Source of the DNA: Oligoflexia bacterium
GTDB lineage: Bacteria; Bdellovibrionota; UBA1018
NCBI GenBank assembly: GCA_014378465.1
Contig: JACMNQ010000010.1
Coordinates: 1-64,000, forward strand
DNA: 64,000 nt
Direction: 5' to 3'
Part shown: piece after piece, positions 17,935-39,627 of the stretch
Layout: each line of letters starts with the position of its first letter
Numbering within the stretch: the stretch's first letter is position 1
Notes under the pieces: model-generated
Seen by the model: the letters and a program-made list of their open reading frames with translations, nothing else
Told to the model about the DNA's origin: nothing
Database searches by the model: none
Program-made: the position numbers and the translations under genes

Positions 17935-19749
17935 TCAAGCCATCAGATCGACACGTCCCGTGGCACTTGCTCTCGCCTGTCTGGCGTTGGCAGCCGCGGC
18001 CATGCGACTGGCCACTCCACCGTTGAAGCTGTTTGAACGCATTCCACTGTTCTGGTCAAAGGCCCTGCCGCCACCTTCCTGATTGGCACCCTTGTTCGAA
18101 TTACCGAACTGACTCCCGAATGACTGGGTGTTCTGGTTGAAATCAGGATTGTGCTGACCGCTCATCTGACTGCTTTCCGAGGGCGCCTGTGCGATGGTGA
18201 CATCGACTTTGCCCAGAGTCAGATTCTGACCCGCAAGACTCTCTCTGAGGTGGCCGATGCTCTCTTCAATGATCTTCTTGGCGTTGGCATCAGAAGCATG
18301 GATCTGAAGTCCCACTTCCCTGCCGTCGCTCATGACCTTCACATGCAGTTCTCCGAGATTCTCAGGCTTGAGACGAATTTTCATTTCGCCTCCGCCCTGA
18401 GGCCCCATCGAACGGATGTTCGAAGACATGCCGATCAGAGATTCAGTCGACAACCGGTCCTGGTCCGCGGTCCCGCGAGTCACATGGCCATTCATTTCAG
18501 GGGTCGCTGAAGCGATTCCTGAAGCGATGCCCGTTGTGGCGGCTGAACCATTTGATCCGGACTGTTGAACCGACGAACCACTCAGTTGAGAAAGATCGAA
18601 GTCCTGCTCATGAGCGCCCATGATCTTGGACTTCCCAGGGAGTGCCGGCTTCGCGGTGAGTTCAGAAATCTTGCCGTTCCCGGCAGAATTCATGCTCAAT
18701 GCACCGTTTTGACCGCCATCAAGAACCTTGAAGCCGCTTCGTCCGGCAGGACCTGCAGCCATGGCTGCCACAGTATCCTGTCCAGGACCGAAACTTTCAT
18801 CTGATCCTGATGGTGATCCCGATCTGCCCTGCTCGCCTTTCGCTCCCATGCCTTTGATGCCGTTGAGGGTGCTGAGAAACTCCGCACCGCTCAGCCCGGT
18901 GTAAGGAGCGCCTTGCGGCTTCCCTGCATCCAGACCTTTGGGGGGAGTCAGTTCAATGCTCTGAATTTCAGCGGCATCGTCCCCTTCTTCATCCCCTTGC
19001 AAAAGGGCCAAAGCCGAAAGAAAAGCTCCGACCGGATCATTGCCTGTCTCAATTGCCTCTGCGCCTCTCGAGGAATCTTCGATTCCTGCCTGTTCGGTGA
19101 CAGCGTCACCGTTCCAGGGTTTGAGTCCAGCATTCAGGGCACCAGTATTCAGACTGGAGACGGGGGTTTGACCGGGGGTCATTGCTTGAGCTTGAGCTTG
19201 AGCGTGGGTCTGGGTCTGGGTCTGGGCTTGGGCTTGGGCTTGGGCTTGGGCTTGGGCTTGGGCTTGGGTTTTGAGTTCACCTGCCTGTCCTCCATTGAGA
19301 GTCTTTGCACCAGCCTGAGCTGCCGCTCCATTCATCAATTTCGGATCAAGCCAGGGTGCCTCACCAGAACCAGTCGCTTTCAAATCCTCCGATTTGAGCT
19401 CGCTCAGTTTTGGATCCGCCTTTCCTGCCATTTGGCCTGCGAGTCCGCCAGCCAGCTGACCTTTCATTTCGACTTTTTGCCCTGCTTCAGCTCCTGCCTC
19501 TCCAACGGCTTTTGTCTGCAGCGCCAGTGATCCCGGTTTCACGGGTACTGGGGTCGCAGACAGGCTCATTGCAGCGGCGTTGGCTTCGGCCAGCTTCGTG
19601 TCCAGTTCCTGATCAAACTCCCGGTCATCGTCAGCTGCGGCCGAACTGCTCGCCGAATTACTTCCCTTTTTCTGAACTGATTTTGGAAGCAGGTTCGCGT
19701 TGTCCGCCGGACTGGACTGGGGTGTGAGTGCTTTGTTGATTTCCATCAT
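17935..19749 (-). CDS. fliK: FliK, hook-length control protein with (Ala-Gln)n repeat
   Basis: This protein is about 604 aa. The C-terminal Flg_hook domain (about 470-545: GGGEMKIRLKPENLGELHVK, then NLTLGKVDVTI) is the part that contacts FlhB to switch export specificity. The long N-terminal region is low complexity, as expected for the molecular ruler, and contains an AQ/TQ dipeptide repeat encoded by hexanucleotide repeats near 19184-19267. The track ORF begins upstream; the ATGATG at 19749, preceded by AGGAGG, is the proper start. The first 92 bases overlap the end of the preceding motE-like gene in another frame. The identity also rests on its place between the motE-like gene and flgD. 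Confidence 0.92.
   Translation of the reverse strand: MMEINKALTPQSSPADNANLLPKSVQKKGSNSASSSAAADDDREFDQELDTKLAEANAAAMSLSATPVPVKPGSLALQTKAVGEAGAEAGQKVEMKGQLAGGLAGQMAGKADPKLSELKSEDLKATGSGEAPWLDPKLMNGAAAQAGAKTLNGGQAGELKTQAQAQAQAQAQAQAQTQTQTHAQAQAQAMTPGQTPVSSLNTGALNAGLKPWNGDAVTEQAGIEDSSRGAEAIETGNDPVGAFLSALALLQGDEEGDDAAEIQSIELTPPKGLDAGKPQGAPYTGLSGAEFLSTLNGIKGMGAKGEQGRSGSPSGSDESFGPGQDTVAAMAAGPAGRSGFKVLDGGQNGALSMNSAGNGKISELTAKPALPGKSKIMGAHEQDFDLSQLSGSSVQQSGSNGSAATTGIASGIASATPEMNGHVTRGTADQDRLSTESLIGMSSNIRSMGPQGGGEMKIRLKPENLGELHVKVMSDGREVGLQIHASDANAKKIIEESIGHLRESLAGQNLTLGKVDVTIAQAPSESSQMSGQHNPDFNQNTQSFGSQFGNSNKGANQEGGGRAFDQNSGMRSNSFNGGVASRMAAAANARQARASATGRVDLMA
19184..19267. repeat. In-frame hexanucleotide microsatellite in fliK
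   Basis: On the plus strand there are about three GCTTGA units, then GGGTCT-type units, then seven exact GCTTGG units. They encode AQ and TQ dipeptides in FliK. Because the unit is six bases, slippage would change ruler length without breaking the frame. Confidence 0.9.
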
Positions 19750-20494
19750 TTTTGTCTCCTCCTTTCGTGTTTGTCTTTGCAGCCAGAGTGTCATTGTCCC
19801 GCTGCGGAGTTGCAGCGGGTTTCTTGGCGTGGGCTACACCCGCCAATAGTTCGGTGAGATGAGAAGCCTTGGAGGCCTCCATCAGATTCATGATCTTCGC
19901 GAGCTTCGCGGTGGAAATGCGGCCGATGGCGACGACAGCGAGATCTTCATCGATATTGCTGATCAGCTGCATCGCGGACTTCGGACTCATCGTTTCAAAA
20001 GTTTCGACGAGCTTGCTGACGCGTTCTTCTTCCTGCTTCTTCGCGATCCCCTGCGACTGCTTGATCTGATCGCGGACGGTATCGAGCTTCTTGAGTTCTT
20101 CTTCAACCGCGACTTCGCGCGCTTTCAGTTCCGCTTCGCGTGACGCTATTTCCCTTGATTTCTGATCCAGCTCTTCACGACGTTTCTGAATGTCGTCAAT
20201 CGCGAGATTGTCAGCAAGGCAACCCTTTGAAGCAGGAGTCGTCACGGCCGCCACTCCGGGAACGGAAGGCACGAGTCCAGCAGGCGCGCGGGCCGCATCC
20301 CCTGTTTTCGTGCCGGTTGATTTTGCTTCGCCCGCTTTTGCATCCGTGGAAACGGCGCCTGCTTTTTCAGTCGCATGTTCAGGAGTCGCTTCAGCGGCCG
20401 TTCCTTCTGAAACTGAGATCAAGGTACCGGTGACGCAGGCTGCGGCGCAGATGAGTACTCCAAAAGACCAGAGTTGAGTGACTTTCCTTTTCAT
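19658..20494 (-). CDS. MotE-like flagellar chaperone/coiled-coil protein
   Basis: This 278-aa protein has an N-terminal signal anchor (about residues 8-30, SFGVLICAAACVTGTLI), a long coiled coil (about 100-160, REELDQKSREIASREAELKA), and a C-terminal MgtE-N-like domain (about 165-215: VETFETMSPKSAMQLISNID, then VVAIGRISTAKLAKIMNLM). This layout matches the MotE/FliG-like 'magnesium transporter MgtE-N' family found after fliJ in many flagellar operons. In other bacteria MotE stabilises the stator protein MotC. The tail is Lys/Ser/Gln rich. It overlaps fliJ by 4 bp and overlaps the start of fliK by 92 bp. Confidence 0.78.
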   Translation of the reverse strand: MKRKVTQLWSFGVLICAAACVTGTLISVSEGTAAEATPEHATEKAGAVSTDAKAGEAKSTGTKTGDAARAPAGLVPSVPGVAAVTTPASKGCLADNLAIDDIQKRREELDQKSREIASREAELKAREVAVEEELKKLDTVRDQIKQSQGIAKKQEEERVSKLVETFETMSPKSAMQLISNIDEDLAVVAIGRISTAKLAKIMNLMEASKASHLTELLAGVAHAKKPAATPQRDNDTLAAKTNTKGGDKNDGNQQSTHTPVQSGGQREPASKISSEKGK

Positions 20495-23460: not shown

Positions 23461-24471
23461 TCAGACCAGCGCATCGGCATCGCCGCCGCGGCTGATCATG
23501 ATCTTGCCTTCGGCTTCGAGACGTTTCGCGACGTTGATGATTTCCTGTTGCGCATTTTCGACGTCGGAGATGCGGACTGGCCCCATGGATTCGAGGTCTT
23601 CCTTCAGCAGATCCGCCGCACGCTTGGAAATGTTCTTGAAGATCTTTTCCTTGATCTCCTCCGGAGCGGTCTTGAGTGCCATGACCAGCTTGTCGTTGGG
23701 CACTTCCTTGAGGAGCATCTGCATGCCGCGGTCGTCGACGAACACGATGTCGTCGAAGACGAACATGAGTTTGCGGATTTCTTCGGCCAGCTGAGGATCC
23801 TTCTCCTCGACGCGGGCCAGAATGTTCTGTTCGCTCGTCTTGTCCATGACATTGAGCATTTCGGCGATCGGCTGGATGCCTCCGAGCTGCTGAGTGTCGA
23901 TGGATCCCAGAGTCGCGAGTTCCTGCTTGAGCACTTCGTCGACCTGCGCGATGAGGCTTGGGGAAATGAAATCGAGGTTCGAGATACGAAGCACGACCTC
24001 AGTCTGAATCGCTTCCGGAAGACGCTTGAGAACTTCACACTTCTTGTTGGGTTCAAGATGCGCGAGAATGAGTGCGGTGGTCTGCGGATGTTCGTTGACC
24101 AGGAAATTGGAAAGGGTTCTGGAATCGACGAGCTCGAGAGCTTCGAGAGTCCGGCTGCCTTCGACGACGGAAAGCTGTCCGAGAACGGTCTTTGCGCGCT
24201 CTTCTCCCAGAGTCTGAAGCACGAAATCACGGCCCTGCGCATGCCCGAAGATCAGCGTGTCTTCTTCCGAAATCTCGGTATAGAAAGCTTCGAGCACTTC
24301 CTTGACGAGCGGGATCGGCACCTTGGTGACCATCCCCATGGCGCTGACCAGACGTTTGACGTCGTTGTCCTTCATCTTCTTGAAGACCTGGGCGGTGACC
24401 TGGTTGCCCAGGACGTTCAATAGAAGTGCGGATCTTTCGAGTCCGCTCATTTGATCAATGCTGTCGAACAT
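23461..24471 (-). CDS. fliG: FliG, flagellar motor switch protein
   Basis: This 336-aa protein is of normal length. The N-terminal domain begins MFDSIDQMSGLERSALLLNV. The middle domain has the FliM-binding EHPQTTALILAHL motif (EHPQ is conserved). The C-terminal torque domain contains FVFDDIVFVDDRGMQMLLKE and the charged helix DKLVMALKTAPEEIKEKIFK. It sits on FliF at the top of the C ring and contacts the stator. It directly follows fliF (14-bp gap). Confidence 0.96.
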   Translation of the reverse strand: MFDSIDQMSGLERSALLLNVLGNQVTAQVFKKMKDNDVKRLVSAMGMVTKVPIPLVKEVLEAFYTEISEEDTLIFGHAQGRDFVLQTLGEERAKTVLGQLSVVEGSRTLEALELVDSRTLSNFLVNEHPQTTALILAHLEPNKKCEVLKRLPEAIQTEVVLRISNLDFISPSLIAQVDEVLKQELATLGSIDTQQLGGIQPIAEMLNVMDKTSEQNILARVEEKDPQLAEEIRKLMFVFDDIVFVDDRGMQMLLKEVPNDKLVMALKTAPEEIKEKIFKNISKRAADLLKEDLESMGPVRISDVENAQQEIINVAKRLEAEGKIMISRGGDADALV

Positions 24472-24485
24472 GGTTCATTTCCTCA

Positions 24486-26231
24486 TCAGCCCGTTTTGGA
24501 TTTTCCAGGGCCGCCGCCCTTGTCGCCTTCGGCGCCATCTTCCTTCTTCACCGGCTCGTGCAGCCAGTCCTTCAGAATCAGGGCAGCCTTGTGTGGATTG
24601 CTGTCAACGAGAGTGATGATCTTTTCCTTGATCATCTCGCCTTCGACCTTTTCCGGATCCACGCGGTCCGGCAGGACCGGAATCGCCTCCTCGAGGCCTG
24701 GCAGAATGGCGTTCTTCTGCATGCGCTCGAGCTCTTCAAGCGTCTGCGGCAGGAACGTATCCACGCTGTCGATGGTATTCTCCGTGATCCACTTGATGAA
24801 AGGTCTGACCACGAGAAGAAAAAAGAGCACGATCGTGACGCCGATCACACTGTAGAGCACGATGTTCTGGATGTAGCTCTTGCGTTCCTTCTCCTTGAGA
24901 ACCAGCTCAGCTTCCAGAAAGTCTTCCTGCTTGAATTCCATCGTCTTGATTTCGAGGATGTCTCCCCGCTTGCGGTCCAGGCCCACGGTGCTCGCCACGA
25001 TATCTTCAAATTCCTTGAGCTTCTCGGCACTCCAGGCTTCGCTCTTGGTTTCAAACTTGCCATCGGCCGCTGGAGTGCGGGTCTGTTTGCCGTCCATCAT
25101 GACTGCAACGGAAAGCTTCTGGATCGAACCGACAGACTTCTGGGTCCGGCGTACGGTCTGGGGAACCTCATAATTGGTGGTCTCATTGGAAGTCTTCGTG
25201 TCACTCAGCTTGACGACTCCGGCGCCCGGAGTCTGACCGGGAGTGTTGGACAAGGCACCTGCCGGACCGCTGGCAGTGGGGCGGGAGCCTTCCATGGACT
25301 TCGTATCCCGCTGGACGGAGCGAACTGCTGATCCATCGGCGTCATAAATCGTCTGAGTTTCGTTGACCTGCGCGAAATCGAGATCCGCACTGATCTTGGC
25401 GATGACGTGCCCTTCTCCAACGACTCGACCCAGAATGGCTTCGACGCGCTTTTCGAGGTCGCCCTCGACCTTGCTGCGGTACTCGAGCTGCGTCGCGGTC
25501 GCCTGCGCGAGTGAATCGCTGGCGTTCTTCGAGAGAGTCTTGCCGTGATTATCGACGATCACGACGTCCGTGGTATCCATCCCCTCGACCGCACGAGCGA
25601 CCAGGGTGCCGATTCCATAAACCTGCTTTTCAGAAAGTACGACCCCCGGCTCCAGGTCGAGAACGACGGAGGCGGTGGATTTCTTCTGATCTTCGACGAA
25701 AGTGCTCTTGGTCGGAATGGCCAGATGCACGCGGGCGCGCTTCACTCCACTGATGGACTTGATGGTTCTCATCAACTCGCCTTCGAGGGCGCGCTTCTGG
25801 TTGACCTTCTGAACGAAACTTGTGGTGGCCAGGCTCTGCTTGTCGAAGATTTCATAACCGACGACGCTGTTTTCAGGAAAACCCATCGTCGCGATTTCGA
25901 GACGGAGCTGATCCAGATTCTCCGGAGTCACGGAAATGTTCTTTCCACCCTGGTCGACTCTGAACGGGATGTTCTTTTCACGCAGCAGGCGGATGATGTT
26001 CGCCGAGTCTTCAGGATTGAGGTTGGTCATGAGCGGAGAAAAGGTCTTGTCCCCTGCCCAGAAGAACATTCCGATGATGACCATGAGGATTCCGCCGCCG
26101 ACGCCGACCATCGCGAGCTTCTTGCCCGGGGAGAGTCCCGAGACGAAGTCCATGATCTGACTCGAAACTTTTGTAAAATAATCGCCCACGTTGATCCCCA
26201 TCCCTGTCGTCAAATCAAGCCAACCACCCAC
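24486..26231 (-). CDS. fliF: FliF, MS-ring protein
   Basis: This protein is about 571-581 aa. It has a first transmembrane helix near residues 38-58 (KLAMVGVGGGILMVIIGMFF), ring-building motifs (FSPLMTNLNPEDSANIIRLL, VKRARVHLAIPTKSTFV, SASVVLDLEPG), a Ser/Thr/Pro-rich periplasmic loop, a second transmembrane helix near 445-470 (IVLYSVIGVTIVLFFLLVV) and a C-terminal FliG-binding tail. The track start is a GTG at 26231. An ATG at 26201 (MGINVGDYF) is an alternative; neither has a strong ribosome site. It begins the fliF-G-H-I-J core, 46 bp after fliE. Confidence 0.95.
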   Translation of the reverse strand: MGGWLDLTTGMGINVGDYFTKVSSQIMDFVSGLSPGKKLAMVGVGGGILMVIIGMFFWAGDKTFSPLMTNLNPEDSANIIRLLREKNIPFRVDQGGKNISVTPENLDQLRLEIATMGFPENSVVGYEIFDKQSLATTSFVQKVNQKRALEGELMRTIKSISGVKRARVHLAIPTKSTFVEDQKKSTASVVLDLEPGVVLSEKQVYGIGTLVARAVEGMDTTDVVIVDNHGKTLSKNASDSLAQATATQLEYRSKVEGDLEKRVEAILGRVVGEGHVIAKISADLDFAQVNETQTIYDADGSAVRSVQRDTKSMEGSRPTASGPAGALSNTPGQTPGAGVVKLSDTKTSNETTNYEVPQTVRRTQKSVGSIQKLSVAVMMDGKQTRTPAADGKFETKSEAWSAEKLKEFEDIVASTVGLDRKRGDILEIKTMEFKQEDFLEAELVLKEKERKSYIQNIVLYSVIGVTIVLFFLLVVRPFIKWITENTIDSVDTFLPQTLEELERMQKNAILPGLEEAIPVLPDRVDPEKVEGEMIKEKIITLVDSNPHKAALILKDWLHEPVKKEDGAEGDKGGGPGKSKTG

Positions 26232-26277
26232 GGGCTTCGTTCATCCTGAACGGGCCCACTCGCAACGAAACTGAAAA

Positions 26278-26673
26278 CTACACCTGCATTCTCATGATTT
26301 CCTTGTAAGCATCGAGGACCTTGTTGCGGACCTGCATCATGAGTTTCAAGGAAGCATCGGCTCTTTCAATGGTGAGCATCGTTTCGTGAATATTCTTTGA
26401 GCGGCCGGCGACCAGCTCCTTGATCGAGCGATCGGCCTGGACCTGGTCGTTGTTCACTTTTTCCATCGTGCTTGAAAGCATCTCGGAGAAATGCCCGGAC
26501 TTGTCGGGGCCCTGAAGATCAGGAACGGTCATGCCGTTGGCCCGCATCTCCGTCGTCACCCTGGCTTCAGAGGCGATCCCGCCCCCGATGCCACCGGCAC
26601 CGGTCGTGCTCGAAGCGGTTTGAGAGATCCCCTGAAGCGCCCCACTCAGATTTTCAATGCCCAGATTGCTCAT
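26278..26673 (-). CDS. fliE: FliE, MS ring-rod junction protein
   Basis: This 131-aa protein has the conserved C-terminal half of FliE (about 60-131: FSEMLSSTMEKVNNDQVQAD, then NIHETMLTIERADASLKLMMQ and VRNKVLDAYKEIMRMQV). The N-terminus is Gly/Ala/Ser rich and slightly longer than in Salmonella. FliE links the MS ring to the proximal rod and is the first protein exported. It lies 6 bp after flgC. Confidence 0.95.
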   Translation of the reverse strand: MSNLGIENLSGALQGISQTASSTTGAGGIGGGIASEARVTTEMRANGMTVPDLQGPDKSGHFSEMLSSTMEKVNNDQVQADRSIKELVAGRSKNIHETMLTIERADASLKLMMQVRNKVLDAYKEIMRMQV

Positions 26674-26679
26674 CTTGAA

Positions 26680-27117
26680 TTATCTCCCGATTTCCAAAGC
26701 TTTTTGAGCCATGGCTTTTGCCGCATTCATCGCTGTGATATTGGCTTCATAGGATCTTTGCGCGCTGATCATGTTGGCCATCTCTTCGACCGTATTGATG
26801 TTTGGCATCGCCACGTACCCTTCTTCATTCGCATCCGGATGGGAGGGGTTGTAGACCATGCGTGGCGGGCGCTGATCTTCGACGATCTCCTGAACCTGCA
26901 CGCCCTGGACGTTCTCGTCGAGCTTGTTCTCGAGGATCTCGCCGAAGCTTTCGCGGTCGGTTTCGGCCGCGAACATCGGATCCTTGCGCTTGTAGGGTCC
27001 GCCCTCTTCCGTGCGCGTGGTTTCGGCATTCGCGATATTGCTTGAAATGGTGTTCATGCGCTTGGTCTGCGCATCGAGTCCGGAAGCACTCACTCTCATG
27101 GATGAAAAGAAATCCAT
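26680..27117 (-). CDS. flgC: FlgC, proximal rod protein
   Basis: This 145-aa protein has the N-terminal rod signature (MRVSASGLDAQTKRMNTISS, NIANAETTRTEEGGPYKRK), the FlgC-typical HPDANEEGYVAMPNINTVEE motif, and a C-terminal D0 helix (MISAQRSYEANITAMNAAKA). Its start codon overlaps the flgB stop codon by one base, and it is followed at once by fliE, giving the standard flgB-flgC-fliE order. Confidence 0.96.
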   Translation of the reverse strand: MDFFSSMRVSASGLDAQTKRMNTISSNIANAETTRTEEGGPYKRKDPMFAAETDRESFGEILENKLDENVQGVQVQEIVEDQRPPRMVYNPSHPDANEEGYVAMPNINTVEEMANMISAQRSYEANITAMNAAKAMAQKALEIGR

Positions 27118-27527
27118 TAACGATTACCCCCGCCTTCAGAAATCGCGTACTTGAGCATGCCGAGCTTCTTCTTGATCATTTCAGTCGAAGCATCATAAAG
27201 GAGCTGATTTTCGGCGAGTTTCGCCATTTCACTGGAGCGATCCACGGTGTTGCCATCCAGGGACTCGACGCCGTTCGGATCGTCATAGATGTCAGGATTC
27301 ACGGGATCGGTCATCTTGTGCACGATGTGATGGGCATTGTCCCCTTCCATCGGGAGCTTGCCATCGACCGCGAGAGCCTCGCGAAGTGCACCTTCGAATT
27401 CGACGGCCTTGGCCTTGTAGCCCGGGGTGTCCGCATTGGCGATGTTGGAACTGATCACGCCCTGATTGGTCAGGCGAAGATTCAGTGAAGTGTTCAGTGC
27501 GCCGATGATGGGATCAAAACCACTCAT
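27117..27527 (-). CDS. flgB: FlgB, proximal rod protein
   Basis: This 136-aa protein begins MSGFDPIIGALNTSLNLRL and carries the rod motif GVISSNIANADTPGYKAKAV, then a C-terminal helix (LAENQLLYDASTEMIKKKL). The track ORF starts 15 codons earlier (GTG/TTG-type start). The ATG at 27527, preceded by GGGGGAAT, gives the normal FlgB N-terminus. It heads the flgB-flgC-fliE-fliF block and follows a 300-bp spacer with a large inverted repeat and a weak sigma-54-like element. Confidence 0.94.
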   Translation of the reverse strand: MSGFDPIIGALNTSLNLRLTNQGVISSNIANADTPGYKAKAVEFEGALREALAVDGKLPMEGDNAHHIVHKMTDPVNPDIYDDPNGVESLDGNTVDRSSEMAKLAENQLLYDASTEMIKKKLGMLKYAISEGGGNR

Positions 27528-27716
27528 ATCATTCCCCCGCTTTCGCTCACGACCCGAGCCGCGCGCCCACACCAGAGTTCAAGGAATATGCCGCTCTGCC
27601 GATGAGTCCCGCGCGACTGTTTTCTCAAACTGCACTTCTCCACTTTTCCGCCCTTTTCCTTCGTCTTATGAGCGGTTTTCCGCTCGTCTGTCAATTCTAC
27701 TCTCAAATTTTCAGCT

Positions 27717-27756: not shown

Positions 27757-27817
27757 TGATCAGGCAGAAACTTCCGCTCCAGAGGATTACGGGAAGTTTC
27801 TGCCGACCTTCTGATCA
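27757..27817. repeat. Large two-tier inverted repeat upstream of flgB
   Basis: GGCAGAAACTTCC (27763-27775) and its exact reverse complement (27792-27804) form a 13-bp stem around a 16-base loop. Outside them, TGATCAG (27757) and CTGATCA (27811) also pair. It lies between the stop of the sigma-54 activator gene and flgB. It could fold as a terminator-like hairpin, although no T run follows, or act as a double enhancer site, since a near-identical 13-mer lies before the TPR operon. Confidence 0.8.
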
Positions 27818-27828
27818 AGAACCGGAAC

Positions 27829-28824
27829 TCAGACGTTGATGCCGTCGCGACGGTAGTCCGCGAGCTTGTTTCTGAGAGTGCGGATGGAAATCCCAAGCGC
27901 TTTGGCGGTATGGGTACGATTGCCGGAGTGATAGGTCAAGGCGGTCAGGATCACGCTCTTCTCGATGTCATTGAGAGTGTTGCCTGGCGCCCAGCCGGTG
28001 GAATCGAGCTTGGCCGCGGAATCGCCCGCAAGAATGTCGAAACTTGCGGCCGCGCCGCCCAGCTTTGCACTATGGCGACGCTCAATGTAGATGTCCTTTC
28101 CACAGACGAGGCCGTCGTGGGCGGTGATGATCGCACGTTCGATCACGTTTTCGAGTTCACGGATGTTGCCGGGCCAGGTGTGCATTTCAAGAATCTGAAG
28201 AGCTTCCGGAGTCATGCCGGAAAGAGTCTTGCCGTTATTTTCCGCGTACGAGTTCATGAAGTGCTCGGCGACGAGCTTCACGTCGCCCAGGCGTTCACGA
28301 AGTGGAGGCATGTTCAGATTGACCACGTTGAGGCGATAGAACAGGTCTTCTCTGAAAGTTCCGTCCTTCACGCAGTCAGACAGATTGCGGTTCGTGGTGG
28401 CAATGATGCGGACATCGACCGGGATCGGCTTGCGGCCACCGATGCGATCAACTTCGCCTTCCTGAATCACGCGCAGGAGTTTGGCCTGGAGGCGGATGTC
28501 CATTTCGGAAACTTCATCCAGAAGCAGGGTTCCGCCGTTCGCGAATTCGAACTTGCCGGCTTTGCTGCTGACCGCGCCGGTGAAAGCGCCTCGTTCGTAA
28601 CCGAAGAGTTCGGATTCCAGGAGATTCTCCGGAATGGCCGCGCAGTTGATGGCCACAAAAGGCTTGCCGGAACGATTGCTGCTGTTGTGAACGAGGCTCG
28701 CCATGAGCTCTTTTCCAGTGCCGCTTTCTCCCTGAATCAGAACAGTGGCCTTGCTCGCAGCCACGGTTTTCGCCAATTGAACCAATTCCTGCATTCTACG
28801 ATCCGACGTAATCATCTCACTCAT
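27829..28824 (-). CDS. Receiver-less sigma-54 activator (FlrC/FlgR-like)
   Basis: This 331-aa protein consists only of an AAA+ domain (about residues 1-235) and a C-terminal Fis-type helix-turn-helix (about 285-327, [20 protein letters not shown]). Walker A is GESGTGKE, the sigma-54 contact loop is GAFTGA, Walker B is [11 protein letters not shown], and the arginine-finger region is [11 protein letters not shown]. No receiver or GAF domain precedes it, unlike FlrC, NtrC or FlgR, which carry N-terminal regulatory domains. Position at the head of the flagellar cluster suggests that it activates flagellar promoters. It overlaps the TPR gene by 4 bp and shares its sigma-54 promoter, so it may be autoregulated. 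Confidence 0.88.
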
Positions 28825-31790
28825 TTGCTACCGCCCTCCTTGGCAGTTTTAGAACCCGACTGACCCGCTCCCGCCAACGTTCTATTGGCGAGTTTCTTCC
28901 AAAAATCATCAACCTTGCTTTCGGCCAGCCTTTTCAGAATGACCTGAATCTCTTTCTTCTCTGCCCGATCCGGACCCGATTTTCCCAGAGTTCTTGCGTA
29001 TTCGTACAGAGCCTGGTTGCCGCCCAGGCCCGAATCAATCGCTTTTCCATAAGCATCCGCGGCTTCGCCCCAGTGCCCCTGCTTCGAGAGCAGTTCGCCT
29101 TCGGACATCAGCAGCTCTTCTGGAGCGGCCACTGATGAAACTCCCAGATGCGCTGCCGTGTCCGCTGCCGAATTCCGAAGCTCCGCGGTGAGCCTGATTT
29201 TCTGCAGTCTGCGCAGACCTTCGACCGCGAGTCCGATTTCGCCAGCCTGAGCCTGCAGGGTCGTGACCCAACTTTCAATTCTGGCCTTCTCCCCCTTCAA
29301 CGCCGAAGCGGGAAGAAGAAATTGTGCCTTTGCCGCATGACTGAGCGCTGAAGCGGCCGAACCGGTTCCCGCTGCCTTCATGTCCAGCAGTCCCAAAATG
29401 ATTTCACGCTCGTAGGAAAAAGGCGACTCCGCAATCACGTCCGCCATGCATTCTCTGATTTTCTGTTCGACCTTCACACCAGATCGCATCCAGAGTGCTT
29501 TGCCTTCGGTGAATCGTTCTTCAGATTTCTTCAAGCGAAGATCGAGATCCTGATTGTGCTCCGAAGCCAGGCCGCGTTCACTGCCCATCTGTTTCTGGTG
29601 ATCCTTGAATTCGTCGGAAATTTTCTGAGCCACGCTTCCAAGGCCGAGATCACTGGCGGCCTGAGAGAGCTTGAGGAGGTAATCCGGGGACAGGGATGCT
29701 TCCGTGCCGGCTTCCGGAACGCCGATGAGTTTCGGAATGGATCTTGCCTTCTGGTCGTAGAAACTGAGCGCTTCGTACTTCTTGCCCTGATCCAGCAGAG
29801 ACATCAGCGTGTTTCTGAAAAGATGCCGCAGGATCTGACCGATGGTTTCGCGGGCCGAAGCGTTGGAAGCTTTTTCGAATTCCTGAATTGCGACATCGAC
29901 TGCATTGAGCGAATCCCCGAACGCGATCAGTGTTCTGATACGGCTGAGCGCACGGAAGTCGTTATAGTGCTTCGTATCGACTTCCTCCTTGGGATCAAAT
30001 TTTTCCGCTTCCTCGGTGAAAAAGCTCTTTGCAGTTCCGAGATCAAAACCACCGTGATCCGCACACTGTGCCAGACGTGCCCGTGCGAGCGTCGCTCCCG
30101 GACTGAACGGAAAGCCGTTGATCGTCTGATAGAACCACTTGCGAGATTCAAGGGCGGCCTGAGCGCCCTCTCTTCTGCCCGTGATTTCGGCCAACCTCAG
30201 AGTCGCTCTCCAGCCAGCGGGATTCCCCGCGTAGTCCTTCAGAAACTCCGTGAAAGCCGTCTCGGCCCGATCGTTCTGTCCGAGCCAGTAGAGGGCTTCA
30301 GCACGATTCAGGTGAATCGACGGAAACTTCCTGGCTTCTCCCCTGAATCCCGCCATCGCCTGGTAATAGGAGGCAAGTGCGCGGTCGTACTGGGAGCGAC
30401 TCATGAAGATGTCACCCAGCCGCAGGGCGCCTTCGGCTTTGTAGCGGGCTTCCGGAGCGTTGGCGGCGATCCACTGGTATTCCTTCGCCGCGCGGTCACC
30501 CTGCTTGAGCGCGTACAGTTCTTCAGCTGCCGCCATGTGAAAGACCCAGTTCAGGCGATGAGTCGGATACCGATTCATCAGCCAGAGGTAACTTTCGAGG
30601 GTCGCGAGGTGGGAACCTTCAAGACGCTTCTGGTTCGCGAGGTAGAGAGCGGAATGCAGAGAAATCGCGGAACCCGAATACTGGGTTTTGATTTCTTCCA
30701 GCATCTGGAGTCCGGCGTCCCTGAACGACTTCTCGGTGGTTCCAAGCTTCAGGAGACTGTTCGCTCTCAGAAATTTCATTTCTTTCTGGTAGGCCGACTT
30801 TGGCTGCTCAGCCGTGAAGAAGTCGAGCGTCTTCAGCACGAGTGCGAATTTGCCCTTGCGATAGAGATCCAGCGCCAGACGAACGAAACGCGCTTCTTCG
30901 GCCCGGCTGGTGGCTCGAGCGAAGTTTTCCGTGTCCGCGGACTCTTCGGAATCAGCCCCCTCGACTTCGGCCGCTTTCTCCGTCGGCGGTTCATAATAGG
31001 AGTAGTTGGCATCGGGAGTCGTGGCTGCAAACCATTTGTCAAAATCAAACGCTTCATGAAGCGGGTTGAAAGCAAGAAAGATATCCTTGTCTTCGCTCAG
31101 GGGCTGTTCACAGAACTTCTGGATGTTCAGCGCATCAGCCTTGGCTTTTTCGCTGGCGATCTTGCGGTCCGTGCGACGCTTGATCTGATCTCCCTGATCT
31201 TTCTGATGGGCGGCTGTCAATTCATGCTTGCGGAGTTCGCGCAGCTCAGAGACGGTCGGACCCGCTTTGGGCCAGAAGTCGACGATGAAGCGCGCTGGAG
31301 ATTTCTCCCGGTACTCAAAGCGCTCCATCCTGGGATGGGCCGGGGCCTGATCCCCTTTGGGGAACTTCCACTTTCCGACCACCTTCAGGCCCGCACCGGA
31401 TTCCTGGAATCGCACTTCAGCCAGACGAGCATCCTTCAGGGTGGGCAGAATCTGGGAAAGCCAGGCTGACTCCTGGCCAATCGGAGCACCCAGGTCCGCG
31501 AGGCTGGAGCCTTTGAGAAACAGTTCGAAACCGTCGCCAGTCTCCTTCCACTGAGAATCGACTCCCAGATCGACCGCGAGGACAAGACGGCTATGAGTCT
31601 TGAAAGTGAGGAGCTGGATGGACTGTGTGGAATTTTCAGCCGCGTGAGCCCGAGGAGTGTCAGAAAGGGTCCCCAAAAGGACACCGGCGGCAGTTCCGAA
31701 AGCCACAGGGCCGGCAACGGACAATGACTGTCCAGCGAGTGCCGTCACCGAGACCGCTACGAGAATGATGGAATCTGACTTAAGTTTCAA
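28821..31790 (-). CDS. Secreted TPR-repeat protein with AMIN-like N-terminal domain
   Basis: This 989-aa protein has an N-terminal signal sequence (about 1-50, ending near PRAHAAEN). A beta-rich AMIN-like region follows (about 55-180, [39 protein letters not shown]). The rest is mostly TPR-type helical repeats (for example [77 protein letters not shown]). I do not recognise a named family. A periplasmic scaffold that senses or assembles an envelope machine is a reasonable inference. It is first in the operon, under a consensus sigma-54 promoter, and is translationally coupled to a sigma-54 activator. That suggests a link between flagellar assembly state and gene control, but this is not shown. 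Confidence 0.8.
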
Positions 31791-31874
31791 ATGAGCATCC
31801 TGCTCTACACGGTTCGATCAGTTCACTTTGCCTTGCTCCCGTCCTCATGACGAGGGCTCGACGCTACAAGACAA

Positions 31875-31890
31875 AGCAAGTGCAGTGCCA
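31875..31890 (-). promoter_or_regulatory. Consensus sigma-54 promoter of the TPR/activator operon
   Basis: The minus strand reads TGGCACTGCACTTGCT, which contains all core sigma-54 bases (TGGCAC-N5-TTGCT) with correct spacing. The predicted start site is about 31864, giving a leader of about 75 bases before the TPR gene at 31790. GGCAGAA-type motifs lie 60-130 bp upstream, where enhancer sites are expected. Confidence 0.85.
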
Positions 31891-31947: not shown

Positions 31948-32018
31948 GGCAGAAGTTTCCGATGATGTTCATCTTTTACCTACTACTCGGTGAATGCCGC
32001 CCTCCACATTTCTGCCGA
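31948..32018. promoter_or_regulatory. Candidate enhancer (UAS) sites upstream of the sigma-54 promoter
   Basis: GGCAGAAGTTTCC (31948-31960) and an inverted TTTCTGCCGA (32009-32018) flank a 48-base spacer. The first nearly equals the 13-mer of the flgB-upstream palindrome (GGCAGAAACTTCC). Their distance from the promoter suits an activator binding site. Confidence 0.45.
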
Positions 32019-32188
32019 TCCCGAAATCACCGTGGGCAAAAGAAACCTACAACTTTTTGACCCACCGTCAGGAAGACTACGGTTTCCGCCCGTTGTTTGA
32101 CGATCTCGAGCTCGATTCGACTTCTCAACGGGAGCTTTTTATTTTGTCCCCAATTCAATGAGGCTGAGCTACATTCAGAGGCATCACC

Positions 32189-32806
32189 ATGATCAGAACC
32201 GGATTCTCTCACTCTTCACTGCGTTTTCTGCCTCGCCTTGCTCTGGCGCTTCTGAGCGTGAGCTCTCTGACCCAATTGACCGCCTGTGGTCTGTTGGTCG
32301 GAAACATCAAGCCTGTCGACGAGAAGAACAAAGACTACCGGGTCATGGATCTTGCCAAGGCCAATCCGGACTGGAAGCGCCTTGAGCCGGTCGTGTCTGC
32401 CAATCCCGATGAGCAGAGCGATGTGAAAAAGAACAAGGAAGCCTTCGCGGCCGAGACTTCCGACGTTTCATTCCAATCCGAAAAGACCGCCTCAATCATC
32501 TCGATGAATACGGCATGCCGTGAACGCCGGGCGGACGATAGCAATCTGAAGGCGATTTCCAACCAGCTTCTGCTTGGCATTGCTGACGTCACTCAGCGGG
32601 ATGAGAAGCAGATCCAGATTCAGGGAGTTCCCGCACTGGAGACGACCATTCGCGGCAAGCTCAATGGTGAGCCGATGGCTCTGAAGACGCTGGTCGTCCA
32701 TCAGGACATCTGTGTCTACGACCTGATGTATATTGCCCGGCCAGAGCATTTCGACGCACAAGTGGCCGACTTCGACCGCTTTGCCTCTTCACTGCGACTC
32801 AAGTGA
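32189..32806 (+). CDS. Hypothetical lipoprotein
   Basis: This 205-aa protein has a lipoprotein signal peptide (RFLPRLALALLSVSSLTQ, lipobox LTAC near residue 33). The mature part is soluble, with KNKDYRVMDLAKANPDW and later AYRSD-like alpha/beta segments; it ends VADFDRFASSLRLK. I do not recognise the family. The closing pattern (a short domain ending F-x-x-F-x-x-S-L) resembles small periplasmic proteins that accompany Mla-type transporters, but that is weak. It is 110 bp upstream of mlaE on the same strand and may be co-transcribed. Confidence 0.7.
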   Translation: MIRTGFSHSSLRFLPRLALALLSVSSLTQLTACGLLVGNIKPVDEKNKDYRVMDLAKANPDWKRLEPVVSANPDEQSDVKKNKEAFAAETSDVSFQSEKTASIISMNTACRERRADDSNLKAISNQLLLGIADVTQRDEKQIQIQGVPALETTIRGKLNGEPMALKTLVVHQDICVYDLMYIARPEHFDAQVADFDRFASSLRLK

Positions 32807-32916
32807 ACTCAATCTTCTCGAATTGTCCTGCTTGCGTGCAGTTTTTGCACTGTGGCCGGCATGCGTTCGGATAATCCTCGCCCATTCGAGCCCACTTGAG
32901 TTAAATTGAAGGAAAT

Positions 32917-33696
32917 ATGAGCCAGGCACCCGCTACCAATTTTTCACTCATCCGGTTCCTCGGGGGTTTCGGCCTGCTTTGTGGGCAGATCTTTCGCGAA
33001 GCGATCCGCCCTCCCTACTACTTTGGCCTGATTCTCGAACAGATCTACGCAATCGGCGTTGAGTCCTTCATTCTCGTTGCAGTCACTGGACTGGCCACTG
33101 GATCAGTCATGGCCCTTCAGTTTGGCTTCGGTCTCGCCAAATTCGGCGGCACCCTTTATGTCCCCCGCATCGCCGCACTGGCCATCCTGCGTGAAATGGG
33201 GCCCGTTTTCACCAGTCTGCTGGTTGCAGGACGAATCGGCTCAGGGATCGCTTCTGAAGTTGCCTCAATGAAAGTCACTCAGCAGATCGACGCAATCCGC
33301 GCGCTGGGCACCAGTCCCGTGAAGAGAATCGTCATCCCCCGCCTGATCGCCGCCATGATCGCGCTCCCCATTCTGACTCTCTTCGCCGATTACATCGGCC
33401 TTTTCGGAGCGATGCTGACTTCGAAGGCTGAACTCGGGATCAGCCATGACTACTTCATCGCGAAGGTCATCGAAACCTTGCGCATGTATGACCTCTGGAC
33501 CGGCATGGCCAAGACTTCGGTCTTCGCTTTCTTCATTTCGATCACAGCCTGCTGGAAAGGCCTCAATACCGAAGGCGGAACTCGCGGCGTGGGCAATACC
33601 ACCACCTGGGTTGTGGTCACTTCGAGCATCTTCATCATGATCAGTGATTTTTTTCTCACCAAACTCTTCATTCTCACGGTGTATCCCAAAGTATGA
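32917..33696 (+). CDS. mlaE: MlaE-family lipid ABC transporter permease
   Basis: This 259-aa permease has five to six hydrophobic helices and the conserved MlaE core (YAIGVESFILVAVTGLATGS, then AALAILREMGPVFTSLLVAG, GRIGSGIASEVASMKVTQQI and DAIRALGTSPVKRIVIPRLI). It moves phospholipids between inner and outer membranes with MlaF (ATPase) and MlaD (MCE). The start follows AAGGAA. It overlaps mlaF by 4 bp, giving the order E-F-D. A GATAAT hexamer at 32870 could be its -10 box, but no good -35 accompanies it. Confidence 0.93.
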   Translation: MSQAPATNFSLIRFLGGFGLLCGQIFREAIRPPYYFGLILEQIYAIGVESFILVAVTGLATGSVMALQFGFGLAKFGGTLYVPRIAALAILREMGPVFTSLLVAGRIGSGIASEVASMKVTQQIDAIRALGTSPVKRIVIPRLIAAMIALPILTLFADYIGLFGAMLTSKAELGISHDYFIAKVIETLRMYDLWTGMAKTSVFAFFISITACWKGLNTEGGTRGVGNTTTWVVVTSSIFIMISDFFLTKLFILTVYPKV

Positions 33697-34487
33697 AAGC
33701 CACCTCCGCTTCATCAGCCGCATCAGCCCCGTCTTCGAAGTCGGACTCGCAGGTCGCTCTCGAACTGAAGGACATTCACAAGGCTTTCGGTGAAAAGATC
33801 GTTCACGAAGGTGTGAGCTTTCAACTGAAAAAAGGCGAGATTCTTTCGCTTTTTGGCGGCTCCGGCACCGGCAAGAGCGTGGTGCTCAGATCCATCATTG
33901 GACTCGAGAAGCCTGACAGCGGCGAGATTCTGTTCGAAGGCAAGGACCTGACGAAGCTGACCGAGCGGGAAATGGTTTCGTTCCGCACCAAGATCGCCTA
34001 TGTCTTTCAGGGCGGGGCGCTTTTCGATTCCCTGACGGTGGAGGAAAACCTCTCTTACCCGCTCAAGGAGCACACGAGACTCAAGCCGGCCGAGATCAGA
34101 AAGAAAGTCGACGAGATGCTGGAACTGATCGACATGAAGGACAGCAATGACCTTCTGCCGGATGCACTTTCAGGCGGCATGCAGAAGCGCGCGGGCCTCG
34201 CACGCGCCATCATTCTTGAACCCGCGGTCATCCTCTTCGACGAGCCTACGGCGGGTCTGGACCCGGTCAACACTCACCGGCTTCTCGACAACATCAAACG
34301 TCTGAAGGAAAAAGGCATCACGGGCATTTTCGTCACCCACGACATCCCCGCAGCTTTCGAAATTTCGGACCGCATCGCGATCCTCGTCAAAGGCAAGATT
34401 CACGTCATTGACACGGTAGAAAACATCAAAGCATCTCAGGACCCACTCGTGCAGTCCTTTGTCAGTGGAGCAATGAACAACTCATGA
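33693..34487 (+). CDS. mlaF: MlaF-family lipid ABC transporter ATPase
   Basis: This 264-aa ATPase has Walker A GGSGTGKSVVLRSI, Q-loop FQGGALFDSLTVEEN, signature LSGGMQKRAGLARAI, Walker B VILFDEPTAGLDPV and the switch His in VTHDIP. The FQGGALFDSLTV sequence is typical of the MlaF/TtgA2 subfamily. The first 20 residues are Ser/Ala rich and may be dispensable; a later start is possible. It overlaps both mlaE and mlaD by 4 bp. Confidence 0.94.
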   Translation: MKATSASSAASAPSSKSDSQVALELKDIHKAFGEKIVHEGVSFQLKKGEILSLFGGSGTGKSVVLRSIIGLEKPDSGEILFEGKDLTKLTEREMVSFRTKIAYVFQGGALFDSLTVEENLSYPLKEHTRLKPAEIRKKVDEMLELIDMKDSNDLLPDALSGGMQKRAGLARAIILEPAVILFDEPTAGLDPVNTHRLLDNIKRLKEKGITGIFVTHDIPAAFEISDRIAILVKGKIHVIDTVENIKASQDPLVQSFVSGAMNNS

Positions 34488-35293
34488 AGAAGAAAATGGA
34501 CAAGGATCTCAAAGTAGGAATCTTCGTCACCCTGGGCCTTGTCCTGGTGCTGGGTGCGCTTCTCACGCTGGGTGGAGCGAACAATGTCTTCACACGCCAG
34601 AACAACTACACGACTCACTTCAAATCCACGCAGGGCCTGATTGCCGGCGCTAAAGTGGTGCTTTCCGGTGTCCCGGTCGGAACCATCAAGGACGTGGATT
34701 ACGATGCCAAGGACAAGAACGTCAAAGTGACCTTCTCCGTGGCCCGCAAATACGCGCAGTATATGAAACAGGGAACGATCGTCGAGATCCTCACGCAGGG
34801 CGTGCTGGGTGACAAATTCATTTCCATCGACGCGACTCAGGCCGAGGGCGAAGAGATCGCGGATGGTTCCGAAGTTCCGACACGTGCTTCTGATGATCTG
34901 GCTCAGATCATCCCAAAAGCGGATCAGCTGATGACTTCCCTCAACAGCATCGCCGTCAACCTCGACAAAATTCTCAAGAATTTTGACAAGGGTGGACGCA
35001 GTGACACTTTCTTTCAAGGCATGACTACCACCGCAAAGAACATGGCTCAGGTCTCCGACAAGCTCAACCGACAGCTCGACGGCATGCAGTTGCCCAGGAT
35101 CTCCAAGGAGCTCAGCTCCATCATGGAAAAGGTCAACAATGGGACCGGCACTGTGGGAGCCCTGATCAATGATCCGAGCCTTTACAACGACTTCAGAGCC
35201 TTGGTCGGCGGCGCCAACCGAAACCGGATCATGCGCAATTTGGTTCGCAAAACCGTCAAAGATGGCGAAACTGCTGAAGAACCCAAAAAGTAG
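34484..35293 (+). CDS. mlaD: MlaD-family MCE substrate-binding protein
   Basis: This 269-aa protein is a single-pass, periplasmic MCE protein. It has a transmembrane helix at about residues 10-30 (KVGIFVTLGLVLVLGALLTL) and the MCE domain at about 38-118 (YTTHFKSTQGLIAGAKVVLS, GVPVGTIKDVDYD). A helical C-terminal region follows (120-269), ending in VNNGTGTVGALINDPSLYND, seen in long MCE proteins. No MlaC or MlaB gene follows; the next gene is unrelated. Confidence 0.92.
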   Translation: MKKKMDKDLKVGIFVTLGLVLVLGALLTLGGANNVFTRQNNYTTHFKSTQGLIAGAKVVLSGVPVGTIKDVDYDAKDKNVKVTFSVARKYAQYMKQGTIVEILTQGVLGDKFISIDATQAEGEEIADGSEVPTRASDDLAQIIPKADQLMTSLNSIAVNLDKILKNFDKGGRSDTFFQGMTTTAKNMAQVSDKLNRQLDGMQLPRISKELSSIMEKVNNGTGTVGALINDPSLYNDFRALVGGANRNRIMRNLVRKTVKDGETAEEPKK

Positions 35294-38544: not shown

Positions 38545-39624
38545 TCAGATATCGATCATGTTTCCGCCGTGATTCGGAGTCAGACCTGGAATGTTCAGGA
38601 GCTCTTCTTCACGTTTGTTGGCAGGGATGATCATTCCACGCTTGCGGAGCTTTTCCACCAGGGTCGTGCGATTCATCTGCAACAGTTCACTTGCACGATT
38701 CTTGTTGTTGCTCGTGCGAGTCAGGGCCTGGTCAATCAGGTGATTTTCAAAAGCGGCGACGATCGTCTTGAGATCGAGTCCGGCAGTCGGAAGCACCATG
38801 CGGGGAAATTCAGAACCGGAAAGTGAATCCGCGCCAGCTGGGCGGCTTTCAGCGAACTGCTGAAAGATGCGGTGAGGAAGATCACCGAGATCCACACTGC
38901 CCTGACCCTTGAGGATCACGAGGCGTTCCATGAGGTTTTCGAGCTCACGGATGTTTCCGGGCCAGCTGTAGGCCAGAAGCGCGTCCATGATTTCGCCGGT
39001 GGGAGCTTCGACGGTGTAGCTGTTCTTTTCGTTGAACTGCTTCACGAAGTGATTCACGAAAAGAGGAATGTCAGACTGGCGCTCACGAAGTGAAGGCACT
39101 TTCATCGGAATGACATTGAGTCTGTAGTAAAGGTCTTCGCGGAATTCGCGATTGGCGACGGCAGCTTCGAGATCGCGGTTCGTTGCAGCGATGATGCGAA
39201 CGTCGACTTCAATGGTTTTCGAAGATCCGACATTTTCGAAACTGCGGGTCTGAAGAACACGCAGGAGTTTGACCTGAAGCTGAAGCGGCAATTCGCCGAC
39301 TTCGTCCAGAAACAGGGTTCCGCCGTGAGCCAGTTCAAAACGTCCCTGGCGATTGGCGGTGGCGCCGGTGAAAGCACCTTTCACATGGCCGAAAAGCTCA
39401 GCTTCGAGAAGCTCAGCCGGGATGGCACCACAGTTGACAGTCACCAATGGGCGGCTGGCACGTGGGGAGTTTTCGTGGATGGCCCGAGCGATCAGTTCTT
39501 TTCCGGTACCGCTTTCACCGGTGATCAAGACGGTGCTGTCGGTCTGTGAGACCTTTTCAATCGTCTTGAAAATACTTTGAAACGCTGGACTCTCACCTAC
39601 CAAAGGCGTACGAAATGCGAGCAT
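38545..39624 (-). CDS. Second receiver-less sigma-54 activator
   Basis: This protein is about 359 aa. It has an AAA+ domain (about 1-240) with Walker A GESGTGKE, contact loop GAFTGA, Walker [12 protein letters not shown] and EDLYYRLNV. The C-terminal Fis-type helix-turn-helix is at about 300-335 ([20 protein letters not shown]). No receiver, GAF or PAS domain precedes the AAA+ part, so it is built like the activator at 27829 but is a separate gene. FlrA/FleQ-like master regulators have this AAA+/Fis layout plus an N-terminal domain. Target genes are not known. The ATG at 39624 (MLAFRTP) follows AGGAGG; the track starts one codon earlier at TTG. It has its own sigma-70-like promoter and a long leader. 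Confidence 0.88.
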
Positions 39625-39627
39625 CAA

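Follow-up and report, generated by a model that had tools for sequence, protein, structure and literature searches.

The window, i.e. the whole stretch of 64,000 nucleotides analysed here, holds an operon of two genes on the minus strand, of which the first (28821..31790, TTG start codon at 31790) encodes a predicted PflA/MotK-like periplasmic TPR protein of 989 aa, as suggested by TPR families, a structural model and Foldseek, and the second (27829..28824) a receiver-less FlbD-like sigma-54 enhancer-binding protein of 331 aa, identified by Pfam, NCBIfam FlbD and intact motifs. The start of the regulator gene overlaps the stop of the TPR gene by 4 nt. The operon heads the flagellar cluster of this Oligoflexia-like order of bacteria, on the same strand, in which flgB (27117..27527, ATG at 27527, Flg_bb_rod match) and flgC (26680..27117, profile match, syntenic in relatives) are followed by fliE, fliF and fliG (23461..26673; Pfam matches for FliE and FliG, fliF by translation). 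The order after flgC is fliE-F-G-H-I-J, an MgtE_N-like gene, fliK, flgD and flgE, and after flgE it continues with fliL-M-N-O-P, fliR, flhB, flhA, flhF, flhG and fliA, several of these genes being named from their translation alone. The MgtE_N-like gene (19658..20494, minus, E = 5e-4), whose product has a signal-peptide-like N terminus and a charged helical region, is a FlgY/MotE-like E-ring candidate.

The earlier note had proposed a full-consensus sigma-54 promoter before the TPR gene, and this held up both as an exact match and in its conservation. The -24/-12 element TGGCACTGCACTTGCT (31890-31875, minus) has GG at -24 and GC at -12 with the correct spacing, and lies 84 nt upstream of the TPR gene. 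The transcription start predicted from sigma-54 geometry, 12 nt past the C of the -12 box, is near 31864 (minus), which would give a 5' leader of ~74 nt. TGGCACTGCACTTGCT is the sole exact TGGCACN5TTGCW match in the 64-kb window; with at most one mismatch allowed, the chance expectation of this pattern is 1.95 per window, and 18% of random 64-kb windows attained the score of TGGCACTGCACTTGCT with a position weight matrix, an approximate one built for this analysis from the published consensus. Seen from the window alone, such a site is only modestly unlikely. Genome-wide, exact matches of the TGGCAC form numbered 19, compared to 6 for the reversed control pattern, and those of the TGGCAT form 10, compared to 2. 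The gene for sigma-54, rpoN, is encoded in the same genome and was found in 54/58 genomes searched.

The TPR protein has orthologues or partial matches in 56/58 related genomes. When oriented loci with sufficient upstream sequence were counted, a -24/-12 element stood immediately before the orthologous TPR gene in 36/37 loci outside family f5 (35/36 without the window) and in none of the 11 f5 loci. Because of this conservation we accept TGGCACTGCACTTGCT as a genuine promoter, and it is almost certainly the sigma-54 promoter of the TPR-activator operon. Since two genomes from other families of the class (f7 and f8) also carry the element, it is probably ancestral at the TPR gene. The gene order TPR, regulator, flgC is retained in nearly all order-level loci, and the gap between the regulator gene and flgB is just a few bases in some relatives, so that flgB is probably co-transcribed with the regulator there. 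One genome of the class, L123, has no regulator gene between the TPR gene and flgB, which directly follows it; neither L123 nor L124 gave a regulator match at the TPR locus, and the class genomes of f7 and f8 have the sigma-54 site with no regulator match at the locus. A divergent lipoprotein gene (a weak DUF4946 match) and mlaE-F-D-like genes (32189-35293, plus strand) keep adjoining the TPR operon, and the lipoprotein gene and mlaE stand beside the TPR gene even in L123, which belongs to another family of the class.

In the model of the TPR protein (pLDDT 58, low confidence), an N terminus resembling a signal peptide is followed by a beta-sandwich (58-173), then by a long helix and, at 286-980, by a TPR array. 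An exported protein with an N-terminal beta-sandwich/AMIN-like domain and a long TPR array, encoded next to flgBC, corresponds to the PflA/MotK type: PflA as published combines an N-terminal beta-sandwich with 16 TPR motifs (PMC12222027), and MotK has an AMIN domain plus TPR (PMC13023049). When this pLDDT 58 model was compared by Foldseek with 350,542 PDB chains, the first rank was taken by 9hmf_K, a chain of 773 residues in the C. jejuni periplasmic motor scaffold (E = 1.4e-11, TM 0.16-0.20), which we infer from its length to be PflA. Searched against the PDB by sequence, the TPR protein returned generic TPR matches only, with no similarity to solved PflA. In its predicted structure the protein resembles a flagellar-motor spoke of the PflA/MotK kind. 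According to a preprint, about half of flagellated species have flagellar TPR proteins near flagellar genes, and E-ring genes are found near fliJ or fliK (PMC11870540), a placement that the gene at 19658-20494 between fliJ and fliK fits. PflA of Campylobacter, MotK of Cereibacter and FlcB-type spokes share with our protein the signal peptide, the N-terminal beta-sandwich/AMIN-like domain and the long TPR array, as well as the flagellar neighbourhood and an E-ring partner (FlgY, MotE or FlbB there, the FlgY/MotE-like gene here). Unlike PflA and MotK, the protein here is larger (989 aa), is without sequence similarity to solved PflA and is encoded by the first gene of a regulator operon.

The product of the second gene has a Sigma54_activat domain (E = 5e-73) and a Fis-type HTH, and it is indeed a sigma-54 activator by domain content, as the earlier note had read it; Walker A and B motifs, the GAFTGA loop and the arginine finger are all intact in the window regulator, as in an enhancer-binding protein. 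Its best NCBIfam model was FlbD (NF050807) with 445 bits over model positions 118-445, i.e. after the receiver; the curated cut-off of 750 is missed and the N-terminal domain is absent, hence we call the protein FlbD-like only. Neither a receiver domain, nor a kinase gene among the listed neighbours, as would go with a regulator of the FlrC/FlgR/FleR type, was found. FlgSR, FlrBC and FleSR are two-component response regulators with a kinase, and no cognate kinase is known for FlbD. The suggestion that the layout differs from FlrBC, FlgSR and FleSR was therefore borne out by the missing receiver and the lack of a kinase gene beside the regulator. The likeness of the TPR protein to a PflA/MotK motor spoke, that of the regulator to FlbD and the CsrA-type hairpins of the leader are additions to the earlier note. 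Among relatives, regulators of f5 have lost both GAFTGA loop and Walker B acid and kept the HTH, those of f2 and of genome G024 have degenerate ATPase motifs, and the HTH is nearly invariant across all compared genomes. In a tree of the TPR protein, in which the program flagged long branches, f5 forms a single clade, f2 lies outside it and G024 falls inside f1, placements that put regulator degeneration at about three separate events.

An operator-like palindrome was derived as a consensus, GGCARANTYTGCC, from f5 and then scored in promoters outside f5. With at most two mismatches it occurs in 17/36 non-f5 TPR promoters (shuffled mean 0.8, max 5) and in 18/24 gaps between the regulator gene and flgB (shuffled mean 1.2, max 3), compared to 1/28 other sigma-54-like sites of the genome. 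In the window, the copy upstream of the TPR gene is GGAAACTTCTGCC (31948..31960, minus), and the regulator-flgB gap holds one copy at 27763..27775 (minus) and a second, inverted with respect to the first, at 27792..27804 (plus). A genome search for GGAANNTTCTGCC gave 11 sites, 3 of them within the operon; none of the other 8 lies near a sigma-54-like site, and most are inside ORFs. The distance from operator to promoter is variable, and often the operator is near the -24 box. Since these genomes also conserve the HTH, the best candidate for an operator of the regulator itself is this palindrome; in L123 and L124, where the regulator match is missing, the operator is also absent. As this shared palindrome occurs at the promoter, the regulator very probably binds there. 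The inverted pair at 27763-27804 could double as a terminator hairpin between the regulator gene and flgB.

In 10/11 f5 genomes, CTGCCACAAT stands in place of the sigma-54 site, preceded in most by a TTGCRN-like hexamer at 18 nt, and the spacer of this sigma-70-like promoter holds a palindrome resembling GGCAGATTCTGCC. The joint loss of the sigma-54 site and the GAFTGA loop in f5 supports a link between the regulator and the sigma-54 promoter, but it amounts to one evolutionary event. A single f3 genome, L044, has an intact regulator and no sigma-54 site; there the operator, GGAAACTTTCTGC, directly precedes the -10 sequence TACAAT in a sigma-70-like arrangement. Further upstream in the window, the dyad TGACGGTGGGTCA (32058..32070, minus), followed by AAAA, is a possible enhancer. 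Its form, TGAC-N5-GTCA, was found in 12/37 relatives (random max 7), 112-203 nt upstream, which is the usual enhancer distance; it is retained in G024 and absent near the TPR gene in f5, where it was lost together with the sigma-54 site.

The predicted 5' leader contains hairpin 1 (31838..31854, minus, loop ATGAG) and hairpin 2, GAGC-AGGAT-GCTC (31793..31805, minus), in whose loop lies the Shine-Dalgarno AGGA of the TPR gene (31801-31798). In 36 leaders, GGA-loop hairpins amounted to 45, compared to 4.7 after shuffling (max 15), and the 3' hairpin often covers the Shine-Dalgarno sequence. Hairpin 1 has equivalents in 20/36 leaders (shuffled mean 1.0, max 5); among these there are 12 different inner stems, the closing pair is C-G in 17/20 and the loop is of A-N-GA-N type. 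Taken as a set, the leaders fit the CsrA pattern of at least two GGA motifs in hairpin loops with one of them over the Shine-Dalgarno sequence; the window leader has one clean GGA loop over the Shine-Dalgarno sequence and one AUGAG loop followed by GA. Folding of the window leader is not more stable than that of its shuffles (z = 0.64), and an Rfam search of the leader returned no riboswitch or known RNA. In this genome csrA and fliW are adjacent, behind flgK-flgL, and each was found in 56/58 genomes. CsrA represses translation via GGA motifs (PMC4894983), and among CsrA-FliW targets flagellin mRNA is the best described one (PMC6529632, PMC4894983). Covarying GGA-loop hairpins, one of them over the Shine-Dalgarno sequence, would be as expected of a CsrA target leader.

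Three other explanations were weighed. It is highly improbable that the 16-mer matches by chance and that a different promoter serves the operon: an equally high score in 18% of random 64-kb windows and the sigma-70-like promoters that seem to serve f5 and one f3 genome point that way, and the element at the equivalent place in 36/37 loci outside f5 speaks against it. Much more has to be conceded to a second explanation, which accepts sigma-54 dependence and assigns activation to another protein, acting for example via the TGAC-N5-GTCA dyad at 32070-32058, so that the FlbD-like protein, bound to operators close to the promoters, would mainly repress flgB and its own operon. The sigma-54 site is retained in f2 and G024 despite their degenerate regulator ATPase, and therefore another activator must serve there and the regulator is not always the activator; f7 and f8 genomes hold the site with no regulator match at the locus. 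The dyad, at enhancer distance, is kept in G024 and was lost in f5 alongside the site, an operator near the -24 box or inside the f5 promoter spacer would also fit repression, and the genome has 17 strong activator-domain matches, including a receiver-less one at 38545-39627. Caulobacter FlbD acts in both directions on flagellar promoters, with repression of fliF and activation of middle genes (PMC3930126). Against this, the regulators of most genomes keep every sigma-54 activation motif, which repression alone would not preserve, and the dyad could belong to the divergent lipoprotein gene and recurs at only 1/28 other sigma-54-like sites here. We regard this explanation as a real possibility, if on balance less likely than not. 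The idea that the activator controls its own promoter is accordingly supported for binding, through the shared palindrome, and weakened for activation by f2 and G024; with the sign (activation or repression) left aside, the operon is likely autoregulated.

The hairpins of the leader might also be DNA palindromes or plain stems sequestering the Shine-Dalgarno sequence rather than CsrA sites. GAGC/GCTC is common to many proximal stems, the folding energy of the window leader is ordinary, and 19/81 control ORFs, a set that includes some TPR genes, had a GGA Shine-Dalgarno in a loop with at least 4 bp. We nevertheless think this unlikely, because the stem sequences diverge strongly and yet preserve their pairing, the C-G closing pair and the A-N-GA-N loop, because csrA and fliW occur in almost every genome, and because such hairpins are rare downstream of other sigma-54-like sites.

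The scheme that we favour starts from what can be read in the DNA itself, namely the promoter, the operon layout, the recurring palindrome, the covarying hairpins and the presence of rpoN, csrA and fliW. The sigma-54 promoter TGGCACTGCACTTGCT would drive the operon heading the flagellar cluster, its first gene giving an exported PflA/MotK-like spoke of the periplasmic motor scaffold and its second the receiver-less FlbD-like enhancer-binding protein. The regulator would bind GGCARANTYTGCC at two places, the promoter of its own operon and the gap ahead of flgB, making the operon autoregulated, and where its ATPase is intact, as in this genome, it could activate sigma-54 polymerase. CsrA would hold down translation of the leader via the two GGA-type loop hairpins, the second over the Shine-Dalgarno sequence, and FliW would release this repression; the regulator and CsrA both seem to act back on the operon. 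Protein binding, the sign of autoregulation and the coupling to flagellar assembly are the parts that we infer, and we put the probability of the whole scheme at roughly two in three. More tentatively, at somewhat under even odds, one operon would link construction of the motor scaffold with the control of flagellar genes at three levels (sigma-54 promoter, dedicated receiver-less FlbD-like regulator binding the promoter of its operon, CsrA/FliW-controlled leader), and the regulator would have turned from a sigma-54 activator into a regulator of a sigma-70 promoter in f5, with the loop deleted and the operator moved into the sigma-70 core promoter, two other lineages having degenerated the ATPase independently.

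Compared to known systems, FlgSR, FlrBC and FleSR are likewise flagellar sigma-54 enhancer-binding regulators, whereas here both receiver and adjacent kinase gene are missing. FlbD/FliX of Caulobacter crescentus has in common the FlbD-like activator domain and HTH, a regulator gene beside flagellar structural genes and the lack of a known cognate kinase; in contrast, the regulator here has no receiver, and its gene stands behind a PflA/MotK-like gene under sigma-54 with a CsrA-type leader. CsrA-FliW control elsewhere shares the GGA-in-loop leader hairpins, one over the Shine-Dalgarno sequence, and the csrA-fliW pair behind flgK-flgL here is in keeping with it; unlike the flagellin target, the mRNA here codes for a motor spoke together with a regulator of transcription. 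Enhancer-binding proteins without GAFTGA, such as Caulobacter/Rhodobacter NtrC and VspR, act at sigma-70 promoters (PMC10274813). The f5 orthologues have likewise lost GAFTGA, kept the HTH and have the operator in a sigma-70-like promoter, but here the loss coincides with a switch of promoter type at the protein's own operon, and comparable degeneration occurred in three lineages. A self-acting regulator wired together with CsrA is not known from other flagellar systems. The arrangement is a variant of flagellar sigma-54 control and not a new category; it would form a third style beside the two-component one (FlgSR/FlrBC/FleSR) and FlbD-FliX, in a group whose flagellar regulation is little studied. 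It ties a motor-spoke gene to a regulator gene and predicts a CsrA-FliW target besides flagellin, and f5 versus f1 may be seen as a natural experiment in how an enhancer-binding protein parts with sigma-54 and comes to control a sigma-70 promoter in front of its own operon.

Several smaller observations were made around these features. CGGCAT-N5-TTGAA before flgB was considered as a sigma-54 promoter and rejected, as it is without the C of the -12 box and the opposite strand fits sigma-28 better. On that strand, a sigma-28-like TCAAG-N15-CCGATG (27579-27604, plus) reads from the flgB side toward the regulator gene, antisense to the operon, and could possibly give an antisense RNA; sites with at most two mismatches from the B. 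bacteriovorus FliA consensus were found in 9/22 gaps (shuffled mean 1.0, max 4). The second receiver-less sigma-54 activator (38545-39627, minus), 79% identical to its L021 counterpart at the same relative position, is a candidate for an alternative activator. Many other sigma-54-like sites of the same genome (L001-L019, L052-L061) precede genes for secreted proteins or lipoproteins, not flagellar genes.
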